The notes below the pieces were generated by a model. It was not told where the DNA came from. It searched no databases and worked only from the letters and a program-made list of their open reading frames with translations. A program made the position numbers and the translations under genes. A stretch of DNA of 34,829 nucleotides from Planctomycetota bacterium (GTDB taxonomy: Bacteria > Planctomycetota > Planctomycetia > Planctomycetales > Planctomycetaceae): the NCBI GenBank assembly GCA_003669615.1, contig QWOO01000270.1, positions 1 through 34,829 of the forward strand, read 5' to 3'. Below are positions 9,880 to 25,949 of this stretch, piece by piece (the first letter of the stretch is position 1; each line of letters starts with the position of its first letter).

Positions 9880-9882
9880 CCC

Positions 9883-10006
9883 TCGTTCCAGGGCTCCAGC
9901 CCTGGAACGCAATGCCCGCGAGGCTCCTGCCTCGCGAGCACCGAAGTAAAGGACAGGAGGCAGGAGCCTCCAGGCAGTGTGTTCCAGGGCTGGAGCCCTG
10001 GAACAA
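9883..10006. repeat. Family-1 palindromic repeat block A (full left + right, BIME-like)
   Basis: Hairpins gttccagggctccagccctggaac (9885-9908), cgcgaggctcctgcctcgcg (9917-9936), ggaggcaggagcctcc (9956-9971), gttccagggctggagccctggaac (9981-10004). Confidence 0.95.
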
Positions 10007-10052
10007 GAGAGAATTCTTTGGTTATTGAACCTTAGTCATTGGTCATTCTTCC

Positions 10053-12406
<2,354 letters not shown>

Positions 12407-12410
<4 letters not shown>

Positions 12411-15196
12411 GGGAGAATAGTTTTCAGTTTTCGGTTTTCAGTTTTCAGAAGAATAGCGTTCAGAGAGAGCTCGTGCAGACAGACGACGCTCGGAGAGATG
12501 CTGGTCATTTGAGATTTCCAATTTCAGATTTCAAATCGCCGAAGGACCTGCAGAAGGATACTGCGAAGTTCGGTTCGCCGCAGTTCACCAGCTATCAATC
12601 AGAAGGCACAGCATCAGTTCCCGTCACTCAGGCGGCGACACAATCAGGCACACAGATCGACACTCAGTCCTTTCAAACGACTGAGCTGGATCTTCCGGAA
12701 ACCACCACCGGAATCCTGCTGCTGTTTGGCGGACTGGCGGCTCTGATTGCACTAACGGTCCGAACCTCGCTGCAGGACTCTCGTTTTCTGCAACGCAGTT
12801 CGCGAATTGCACTACTGGTCCCGAGACTCATTCTGCTGCTGCTGTTGCTTGTGATCGTGCTGAATCCGCAAAAACGGACGCAGCTCAGTCGCGTGGAAAA
12901 ATCTCGTGTCGGAATTTTACTGGACACTTCGCTGTCCATGGCGTGGCCAGCAAATGATGAGGCAGGCGGGCCAGCGGAGGAGCGAGGCGGCGAGGGAGGA
13001 GATCAGGGGCAGCCTGAGACAAGTGGGCCTGCAGAAAATGGTACTCGCGCGGATGCGGCGTTAAAGTCGTTGGTGGAATCAGGTGTTCTTGCAGAACTCA
13101 GCAAGACCCATTCGATCACCTTCTATACGTTTGATTCACAACTGGCTGGCCCATGGGCCATCGTCAGCGATAACAGCGTGCGATTTGTCGACATCGAAAG
13201 CAAGGCCACGACAACCTCTGCAAATGCCACATCGAACGCGGCCACCATGTCGCTGGATGAAAAGAGCGACGACGCACATAAGATTGCCGATCCCTCAGCC
13301 ATCGCCAAATGGCAGCGCATCCTGCAGCCGCGCGGCGCGGAGACACGGCTCGGCGATTCCTTGTATCAGATGATCGGGCAGATCACGGGACGAACGCTCA
13401 GCGGTGTTGTCGTTCTGTCGGACGGGCAGTCCAATGCCGGACTGAATGTCGAACCGGCTCGCGTCCGCGCGGAGCGGACCGGTACAAAACTGATCACAAT
13501 CGGGATTGGCAGCCAGAAGCCTCAGATGAATCTCTGGATTGCGGGAATGCAATCACCCACTGACGTGCATCAGGGTGATCCATTTGACGTCAACATCATG
13601 GTGCAAGGCACTGGTGCGGCCGGACAACAGGGGACGGCCCGATTGTTTCAGCAGTCGACAGATGGCGATGGTAAAGACCGTCGCCAGATTTCTGAACAGA
13701 CAATCGAATTTACGGACGACACTTTGCCCACGTCCATTCGCTTTAATCAACAACTGACTGTGCCCGGCAAGTACGACTTCGTCATTCGCATAGAATCGGC
13801 TGCCGGTGCAACGGAAATGACACTGGAGGACAATGAGCGTCGGCGAACCATCGAAGTTAACGATCGACGCATGAAGGTTCTTGTCATTTCCAGCGGACCA
13901 ATGCGAGATTATCAATTCGTTCGCAATGCCCTGTTTCGTCACAGCGGCGTCGAATCAGATGTATGGCTGCAGTCCGTGACGGATGAGAACGTCGGTTTTG
14001 TCTCACAGGAAGCAAAGACCCTGCTGACCAAATTTCCCGCAACCGAAGCGGAATTATTTTCCTACGATGTCATCGTGGCCTTTGATCCGGACTGGAGCAG
14101 GCTGTCATCCGAACAACAGACTTTTCTGAACCGTTGGGTGTCTGATCATTCGGGCGGACTGGTCGTCGTCGCGGGGGAAATTTTCACTCCCAAACTGGCT
14201 CAGGACTCAGATGCCTATCGCGACATCAGCGTGCTCTACCCGGTGCTGCTCAATCGCATGCTTCCGGAAATGCAGCTGACACAACGTGCCGACGAACCAT
14301 GGCCGCTGACGTTAACACAAGAAGGCCGTGCCACAGAGTTCTTGAAGATCGCGGATGCCACAGGCAATGCAAGCGTTGACCTTTGGTCCACTTTCAAAGG
14401 CATTTATCGATCGTATCCTGTTCGCGGTCTTCGCGATGGCGCGGTCGTACTCCTGGAATATGGTAACCCGCGTGCTCGCACAGAACTCGGCCAGCCGCCG
14501 TTTCTGGCTTCACAGTTCTTCGGTACCGGGCGGTGCATTTTTATTGGCTCCGCTGAAACGTGGCGTCTGCGTGAGATCTCGTCTGAAGGTCATCAGCGAT
14601 TTTGGACCAGTCTGATTCGCGAAGTCGGTCAAGGCCGTCGCAGTCGTGGCACGGCACGCGGTCTCTTGCTGCTGGATCGTACCGAAGTCGCGCCCGGCCA
14701 GCCGGTGAACATTCGAGCTCAGTTGTATGACGCTCGCCTGCAGCCGCTGGTGATGGAATCCGTCCCGCTGAATATTGTGGACAGCGAAGGCAAAGCTGTC
14801 AGCATCCCGGACCGACTGAACGCCGATGGTCGAGGTGCCGGTCAGTACGTCAGCAGTTTTCGACCCACTCGATCAGGCGCCTATCGAATTTCTGTACCGA
14901 TTCCAGAATCGTCCGATGTACTGCAGACTACGATCGACGTGGTCCTGCCCAATCTGGAGTCACAAAACCCCACTCAAAATGCCGAACTGCTGACCAATCT
15001 GACGAAAGAAACTCAGGGCCAGTATCTGAGTCTCTCACAGATCAGCACCCTGCCCTCTTTGCTGACCGATCAGAGTCAGCCAGTGGTCGTGGACGAACGG
15101 CTGCAGACCCTTTGGGATCGTGGATGGATCCTGTTCCTGATGGTCACTCTGCTCGCCTTCGAATGGATCCTGCGCCGCGTGTGGCGATTATCGTAG
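12407..15196 (+). CDS. Large vWA / glutamine-amidotransferase-like membrane protein of the MoxR operon
   Basis: ATGA overlap with the upstream gene. TM segments; GILLDTSLSM (MIDAS); SGVVVLSDGQSNAG; amidotransferase-like region RMKVLVISSGPMRDYQFVRNALFRH...; C-terminal TM segment. Confidence 0.9.
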
Positions 15197-24816: not shown

Positions 24817-24817
24817 C

Positions 24818-24868
24818 TCGTTCCAGGGCTCCAGCCCTGGAACGCACTGCCTGGAGGCTCCTGCCTCC
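24818..24868. repeat. Family-1 palindromic repeat block B (left half only)
   Basis: gttccagggctccagccctggaac (24820-24843) and ggaggctcctgcctcc (24853-24868). Confidence 0.95.
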
Positions 24869-24936
24869 CCACGACTTGCAATGCACCACTACGCCAAGTC
24901 ATAATGTCTTAAGTAAAAACAACTATCCCCGCCCTC

Positions 24937-25065
24937 TCGTTCCAGGGCTCCAGCCCCGGAACGCACTGCCTGGAGGCTCCTGCCTCCGCCGTCTTTCACA
25001 ACAACCAAACACAGGAGGCAGGAGCCTCCGCCCAGTGCGTTCCGAGGCTTGAGCCTCGGAACGAG
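24937..25065. repeat. Family-1 palindromic repeat block C (full left + right)
   Basis: gttccagggctccagccccggaac (24939-24962), ggaggctcctgcctcc (24972-24987), ggaggcaggagcctcc (25014-25029), gttccgaggcttgagcctcggaac (25039-25062). Confidence 0.95.
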
Positions 25066-25082
25066 CGGTAAGGAACTTCACC

Positions 25083-25619
25083 ATGGCGCGGACTCGATAC
25101 CGGTTCTCTTCCGAGCAGCGACCCCACTTTCTCACCAACACAATCGTCGCCTGGCTGCCTGTTTTTTCCTACCCGGACTATGCCAACATCGTTCTCGACA
25201 GCTGGAGATTTCTGCAGAGCAAACGCGACATCAGGATTCTGGCGTGGGTGATCATGGAAAATCATCTTCACTGGATCGCCACGGGGCCGGAGCTGGCAAA
25301 GCGAGTCGGTGAGTTCAAGTCATATACGGCCAAAGCGATCCTCGAAAAGATGAAGCAGAACAACGCTTCGATCCTGCTGCAGGAATTGGAATACTACAAG
25401 TTACGGCATCGTGTCGATCAGACGTATCAACTTTGGCAGGAAGGCAGCCATCCCAAAGTGATTGAATGCGACGAAGTTTGCTGGCAGAAGGTGGAGTATA
25501 CGCACAATAACCCCCTGCGCCGTGGATTTGTGGATCAACCGGAACATTGGAGATATTCAAGTGCGAGGAGCTACATGGGGATGCCGGGGCTGATTGATGT
25601 GTGCACGGACTGGCGGTAG
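25083..25619 (+). CDS. REP-associated tyrosine transposase (RAYT, Y1/HUH family)
   Basis: HUH motif in VIMENHLHWIATGPELAKRVGEFKSYTAKAI and Tyr segment VEYTHNNPLRRGFVDQPEHWRYSSARSY. SD AAGGA 8 nt before the ATG. Flanked by palindromic repeats. Confidence 0.92.
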   Translation: MARTRYRFSSEQRPHFLTNTIVAWLPVFSYPDYANIVLDSWRFLQSKRDIRILAWVIMENHLHWIATGPELAKRVGEFKSYTAKAILEKMKQNNASILLQELEYYKLRHRVDQTYQLWQEGSHPKVIECDEVCWQKVEYTHNNPLRRGFVDQPEHWRYSSARSYMGMPGLIDVCTDWR

Positions 25620-25654
25620 TGACGGAAGGCTGAAGACGGGAGCAAAAAAAGGGC

Positions 25655-25708
25655 GGGGAGGCGGGAGCCTCCAGGGCAGTGCGTTCCAGGGCTGGAGCCC
25701 TGGAACGA
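25655..25708. repeat. Family-1 palindromic repeat block D (right half only)
   Basis: ggaggcgggagcctcc (25657-25672) and gttccagggctggagccctggaac (25683-25706). Confidence 0.95.
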
Positions 25709-25949
25709 GGGCGGGCTGAGGAAACTGTGCTTTCCTGAAATGTGGGGCCTCGAATAGACTTTGCCGGGTTATTCAGCGTCGATGGAATCGACGTAAAGTT
25801 TTTGCTGAAGGGGGCTTCAGGTTTTCGCACGGACGCAACAACCGAGCCGGCTGCTGCTGGTTGTCCTGCTGTTTTTCGGTGCCAGCGGATGTGTTCATCA
25901 ACCTTCGCTGCCTCGAGGATTTGAAGCTGCGCGCACGCTCGACGGCCGC

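Follow-up and report, generated by a model that had tools for sequence, protein, structure and literature searches.

A REP-associated tyrosine transposase with two-hairpin repeats in a Planctomycetota genome and a possible residue-to-base-pair rule for repeat recognition

The RAYT gene and its two-hairpin repeats

The window, i.e. the whole stretch of DNA analysed here, comprises 34,829 nucleotides of contig QWOO01000270.1 from a Planctomycetota bacterium. It contains a gene on the plus strand (25083..25619) for a REP-associated tyrosine transposase (RAYT) of 178 amino acids, the motifs of which match the published subclass 2.6/group 5. A first-pass annotation had described an HUH/Y1 transposase at 25083-25619 with an HLH motif and a downstream tyrosine, and we found both as described. 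The HUH motif NHLH occupies residues 60-63 (25260..25271, plus strand) with N60, H61 and H63 invariant in alignments A1-A3. Tyr139 (codon 25497..25499, plus strand), the putative catalytic tyrosine in the sequence YTHNNP, was equally invariant in these alignments.

The protein scored 100.4 bits with the NCBIfam profile NF047646 (REP-associated tyrosine transposase; cut-off 80) and slightly below the cut-off with Pfam Y1_Tnp. The IS200 profile NF033573 yielded only 14.5 bits at a cut-off of 55. An AlphaFold model calculated from a 62-sequence alignment had a pLDDT of 94. A Foldseek search with this model returned 4ER8, the complex of E. coli TnpA-REP with a REP hairpin, as the best PDB match (E 3.2e-8), followed by the transposases of ISDra2 and IS608. 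The protein was classed as a RAYT on the basis of a profile score above the curated cut-off, an HUH motif with a single tyrosine and the TnpA-REP fold. In the model, the loop that connects helix 96-105 to the WQ strand contains residue 113, five positions ahead of the WQ tryptophan. Residue 113 is a glutamine in the window protein (codon 25419..25421, plus strand) and covaries with a base pair at the hairpin tip of the repeats (see below).

The repeat unit has a length of about 52 nt and consists of CT, a first hairpin H1 of 26 nt (CGTTCCAGGGCTCCAGCCCTGGAACG), a linker close to CACTGCCT and a second hairpin H2 of 16 nt (GGAGGCTCCTGCCTCC). Block B (24817..24868, plus strand) is a left-type unit with H1 at about 24819-24844 and H2 at 24853-24868, and starts directly 3' of the stop codon of the upstream gene. 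Another left-type unit, block C-left (24936..24987, plus strand), forms an inverted doublet of 130 bp with the right-type unit C-right (25014..25065, minus strand; GAGGCT). Downstream of the RAYT gene, block D (25655..25709, minus strand) is an inverted two-hairpin unit with H1 outermost, which has a 35-nt perfect inverted repeat in common with B. Block A is a dispersed doublet of 126 bp between the DUF58 and BatA genes, made up of unit 1 (9882..9933, plus strand) and its inverted partner, unit 2 (9956..10007, minus strand). All four blocks had been recorded in the first-pass annotation and were confirmed with slightly refined ends, as were the left type of B and of the left part of C. The position of the transposase between oppositely oriented ends also held, with B and C-left on the plus strand and C-right and D on the minus strand around the gene. 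Block D had been taken for a right-type half element in inverted orientation; its orientation was correct, but its H1 carries the left-type sequence AGGGCT, and the right-type H1 (GAGGCT) is that of C-right.

The H1 pattern occurred at 6 places of the window (12 strand matches), compared to 0.01 matches expected from shuffles, and the H2 pattern 6 times with 0.53 expected. Folding of block B as single-stranded DNA gave H1 with an 11-bp stem and H2 with a 6-bp stem (z = -7.3), while doublets C and A folded into long imperfect hairpins with z-scores of about -11.5 and -12. H1 has no bulge, and the GT[AG]G tetranucleotide, the hallmark of canonical GTAG REPs, was absent from the 5' foot of the hairpin. 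For the window genome, the listed sense-strand units have CT 5' of H1; in relatives this foot is CT or AT, the latter in Pseudomonas and some others. An Rfam search of the block produced just microRNA-type and other chance matches far below the gathering scores. The sequence between B and C (24869-24935) was considered as leftover host spacer. Its alignment to the spacer of the empty site (see below) was not clearly above shuffles (p 0.1-0.3), and this assignment was dropped.

The window belongs to a metagenome-assembled genome of 3.77 Mb, which is 62% complete. A genome-wide count of the repeats, as proposed in the first-pass annotation, started from 67 BLAST matches including palindromic double counts; together with one further unit seen separately these correspond to at least 41 units, a lower bound from searches. 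Sixteen inverted doublets with H1 outermost and a length of 111-144 bp account for 32 of them, B and C-right (249 bp), the 17th pair in the script output, being left out. The script listed 8 single units, all of left type, and B is the ninth. In 13 of the 16 doublets one left-type (AGGGCT-like) end is joined to one right-type (GAGGCT) end. This arrangement suggests that, as with REPINs, it is the doublet that spreads. The RAYT gene itself was present in one copy by search with the window protein. The same genome contains a second RAYT (L031, contig C289, 5940-6389), which scored higher with 180.8 bits and is flanked on both sides by a GTAGGGTGTGTG...CACACC palindrome; it looks like a GTAG-type REP system.

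Homologous loci and covariation of residue 113 with the hairpin tip

A scan of public genomes yielded 80 loci with proteins 42-81% identical to the window RAYT, spread over Planctomycetota, Pseudomonas, Desulfobulbus, Bacteroidota, KSB1, Campylobacterota and others. Most genomes with a match had a single one, and no relative was found in the viral contigs scanned. With the strict pattern of this first scan the double-hairpin unit, or at least H1, was detected near the gene at 66 of the 80 loci, and most of the remaining 14 had variant units, e.g. with GTTACC or GGTTCC stems. At two loci, L151 (2501-3215) and L170 (2501-3294), the RAYT match was about 185-275 nt longer than usual, suggesting an insertion within the gene. 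In an alignment of H1 stems 98.6% of the cells were paired, a value which is partly by construction because the script that selected the sequences required pairing. The informative part is that at 5 of the 11 pairs both bases had changed, more than in any shuffle or slide. Judged from these sequences the H1 stem is maintained through compensatory change.

The third base pair below the loop, here termed the tip, varies between species. The tip base was the same in H1 and H2 at 52 of 62 loci, whereas shuffles, which ignore relatedness, had a mean of 20.8 and a maximum of 35. Among all columns of the RAYT alignment, column 113 tracked the tip best. After addition of loci from new searches and removal of proteins at least 97% identical, 113 labelled, non-redundant proteins were available, and 104 of these fitted a simple rule. 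Arg113 was found with a C:G tip in 43 of 43 proteins, Gln113 with G:C in 23 of 23 and Ser, Thr or Asn113 with A:T in 38 of 46; the single protein with Pro113 had a G tip. The agreement of the tip pair between H1 and H2 and its prediction by RAYT residue 113 are, relative to the literature searched, the new observations of this work.

Eight tip labels were assigned manually upon inspection of the hairpins. The T.G wobbles at L208, L296 and L143 were scored as C since the 3' base is G, and for L308, L112 and L139 unrelated hairpins had contaminated the automatic labels. The remaining two, L147 and L163, received the label T and thereby speak against the rule. The discovery set (n=78) includes about 16 proteins whose hairpins were read only after the rule had been seen. 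In a held-out set, in which some genomes share a family with the discovery set, residue 113 predicted 32 of 35 automatic labels, and 35 of 35 after correction by eye of L208, L296 and L308, made with the residue known.

The nine exceptions among the 113 proteins are the lineage of L117 and L132, the Calditrichota, four proteins with Ser and a G:C tip in H1, and the one with Pro. L117 and L132 combine Ser113 with a C:G tip, and Calditrichota Ser113 with a T.G tip. In the lineage of L117 and L132 (and L271) the residue may have changed recently, or a second determinant may be involved. The four serine proteins (L127, L133, L139 and L155) have a G:C tip in H1 but A:T in H2; their residue agrees with H2, which hints at H2 as the hairpin being read. 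On a diverged RAYT branch with Asn113 (L307, L308 and L315 in genomes G777, G785 and G780), L307 and L308 are adjoined by GACAGT-tct-ACTGTC hairpins, in which the tip base is still A.

The link between residue 113 and the tip could be indirect, with both being inherited along clades while another part of the protein reads the DNA. Indeed, residue and tip are both strongly clustered on the tree. Independent switches of tip and residue numbered up to 11 on the best tree, with 4 on well-supported branches and none in the opposite direction, and the four supported pairs are too few to reach significance in a conservative sign (paired) test. Yet column 113 stands far above all others, with a normalised mutual information of 0.61 compared to at most 0.28 for any other column and a held-out accuracy of 1.00 (corrected labels) compared to 0.83 for the next-best column. 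Among 2767 simulated characters, which changed about as often along the tree, the mutual information reached 0.58 at most, while the observed value was 1.28. Furthermore, the combination of Gln113 with G:C recurs in separated lineages, including L153, L193 and L206 of KSB1 and the L110-L120 clade. Finally, three genomes possess two RAYTs with different residues, each gene beside hairpins with the matching tip: Arg with C and Ser with A in G222, Ser with A and Gln with G in G404, and Arg with C and Asn with A in G777. We consider an indirect link unlikely on these grounds. We rather favor, with some confidence, the view that residue 113 acts as a specificity switch for the tip in both hairpins (Arg for C:G, Gln for G:C, Ser, Thr or Asn for A:T), and that repeated changes of the residue gave rise to new repeat dialects and so to separate repeat families within one genome.

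Repeats and RAYT in related genomes

We examined 59 related genomes, seven of which have a close RAYT (at least 48% identical). The unit pattern CTCGTYCC-N8-16-GGRACGCA was scored as present with at least three matches per genome, a threshold chosen after the control counts (at most 2 per genome) were known. The pattern was present in 6 of the 7 genomes with a close RAYT and in 2 of the 52 others (Fisher p=4e-6); just two of the four matches in G009 are true units, and a stricter count leads to 5 of 7. The two genomes with the pattern and no close RAYT are G018 from the same family (10 matches) and G051 from the same class (13 matches). They have distant RAYTs only. We considered whether their orphan repeats are served by these distant RAYTs, but the flanks of the latter contain no such units. 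G018 is a single-contig genome given as 100% complete.

The near relatives G004, G005 and G016, whose DUF58 protein is 93-95% identical, have neither RAYT nor repeats. The RAYT block of the window has a DUF7133 gene and a hydrolase gene as its neighbours; in these three genomes the two genes adjoin at a distance of about 310 nt, and the block is missing. Similarly, the spacer between the DUF58 and BatA genes has 92-97 nt and no repeat in G005, G016 and G015, compared to 173 nt with block A in the window. The suggestion that block A is a dispersed copy is borne out in that three relatives have the same two genes but lack this dispersed doublet between them. The junctions of the empty sites were not base-exact because the spacers have diverged. 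Equal abundance of the repeats in relatives without a RAYT had been named beforehand as the finding that would speak against a RAYT-repeat pair; the close relatives favour the pair, but G018 and G051 do keep their matches.

These data bear on the possibility that the block from 24817 to 25709 is an autonomous insertion sequence, which transposes together with its gene and from which the doublets derive as ordinary MITEs. The block does end in inverted two-hairpin units, and three relatives lack it between the same neighbours. In G001 and G012 the same DUF7133 gene is followed on its 3' side by a close RAYT in the opposite orientation, and G001 has a second RAYT, 65% identical, plus a fragment. 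Against these points stands the single gene copy found with the window protein in a genome with at least 41 units, like the single RAYT match in most genomes that have any. Moreover, published RAYTs resemble housekeeping rather than transposase genes (PMC8266576). We regard an autonomous insertion sequence as improbable. The related proposal of a mobile unit of 0.8-0.9 kb extending from B or C-left to D was right insofar as the block is missing in relatives; yet the search with the window protein returned the gene once in this genome, the boundary is not base-exact, and the doublets have multiplied rather than the gene. As a separate observation, the unit at the G001 and G012 loci (L214 and L215) starts one base past the stop codon.

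That the repeats are host elements such as terminators, RNA stabilisers or gyrase sites, kept for their own function with the RAYT as a mere neighbour, is very improbable: their hairpins are strong, G018 and G051 retain them without a close RAYT and host roles have been reported for REPs elsewhere (PMC8266576), but they are absent in near relatives without a RAYT, and their tip sequence follows the RAYT residue across phyla.

Proposed mechanism and relation to known systems

The unit architecture, the H1-outermost inverted doublets, their dispersal, their absence together with the RAYT in near relatives and the covariation of both hairpin tips with one RAYT residue, all features of the sequences themselves, are probably best explained by a REPtron/TIRtron-like locus, in which a subclass 2.6 (group 5)-type RAYT, found once in the genome, would bind its cognate two-hairpin repeats, read their tip, cleave them and mobilise the doublets. 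The pairing of the RAYT with probable cognate palindromic repeats, as envisaged in the first-pass annotation, is supported by profile, fold, copy number, doublets, presence and absence in relatives, empty sites, the flanks of homologues and covariation.

We propose that the RAYT binds the folded single strand carrying the TCn loop and that residue 113 recognises the tip pair, three positions below the loop. Arg113 would contact the G on the 3' strand, either of C:G or of a T.G wobble, while Gln would go with G:C and Ser, Thr or Asn with A:T. Reading of the G of the 3' strand by Arg would explain why T.G wobbles occur with Arg. Tyr139 may then cut near the CT at the foot of H1, and the doublets of about 110-145 bp may be moved or copied as non-autonomous elements. 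The RAYT gene would stay in place and be inherited, duplicated or lost more slowly, and orphan repeats could outlive it. TnpA-REPs that have been assayed bind REP as a folded single strand and cleave it at CT, and one member of group 3 cleaves at CA as well (PMC8266576). In E. coli TnpA-REP the REP is contacted by the alpha-3 helix and by the beta-1 region and the surroundings of beta-4, and for groups 2 and 3 the recognition of repeats in vitro involves a GTAG foot and contacts to the loop or the bulge (PMC8266576).

Among the published classes, subclass 2.6, equivalent to RAYT group 5, is characterized in Table 1 of Quentin et al. 2018 (PMC6006769) by the motifs NH[LIV]H, WQ and YIH[QN]NP and a length of 179 amino acids. 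According to the parts of this paper available to us, its members occur mostly in Bacteroidetes and are flanked by 'atypical secondary structures' without GT[AG]G. The window protein with NHLH, WQ, YTHNNP and 178 amino acids fits subclass 2.6/group 5 by motifs and length, T replacing I in the Y motif, and it is likewise flanked by atypical secondary structures which lack GT[AG]G and recur at other places of the genome. The account, as far as it was accessible, gives no consensus structure. Our results differ from it in that the structure is defined (two hairpins, TCn loops and a common tip pair), Planctomycetota, Pseudomonas and others fall within the range, and we put forward a rule that links residue to base.

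TIRtrons, as described in the accessible text of Di Nocera and colleagues 2013 (PMC3733652), consist of a RAYT-like gene (TIRYT) flanked by inverted, sometimes double-palindromic repeats, which are also dispersed as dimers; cases include Pseudomonas and Rhodopirellula baltica. The window RAYT resembles them, by description, in being flanked by inverted repeats unrelated to GTAG REPs. We found no covariation of residue and repeat in that portion of the TIRtron description. In the REPIN/BIME systems with GTAG REPs and RAYTs of groups 2 and 3, inverted doublets are the apparent replicating unit (PMC3116915, PMC8266576). Inverted doublets at regular spacing, a single RAYT gene, an HUH-Y1 enzyme and CT adjoining the hairpin are common to both, whereas the units described here have no GTAG foot, two hairpins instead of one and no bulge in H1. 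With the IS200/IS605 elements IS608 and ISDra2 the locus shares the HUH-Y1 fold and hairpins with T in the loop. Yet the Y motif is YTHNNP and not Y[IV]ENQ, the repeats are long, nearly perfect inverted units, and the genome has one gene copy.

RAYTs, REPINs, TIRtrons with double palindromic repeats and subclass 2.6 with its atypical structures were known before (PMC3733652, PMC3116915, PMC6006769). The titles listed by a text search for the letters of the repeat dealt with unrelated subjects. We found neither a two-hairpin unit defined across phyla nor a residue-to-base rule in the passages covered, mostly from openly accessible text. What is proposed here is a new recognition rule for a known kind of element, which is testable by one point mutation. 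If true, it explains how several pairs of RAYT and repeat coexist in a genome without crosstalk, and cognate repeats become predictable from the protein alone. It would also be a natural example of an evolving code of one residue to one base pair for folded single-stranded DNA.

Apart from the RAYT locus, the predicted start of a large gene in the window (12407-12450) reads NSFQFSVFSFQK and looks like the translation of a short DNA repeat, so that translation may in fact begin further downstream.
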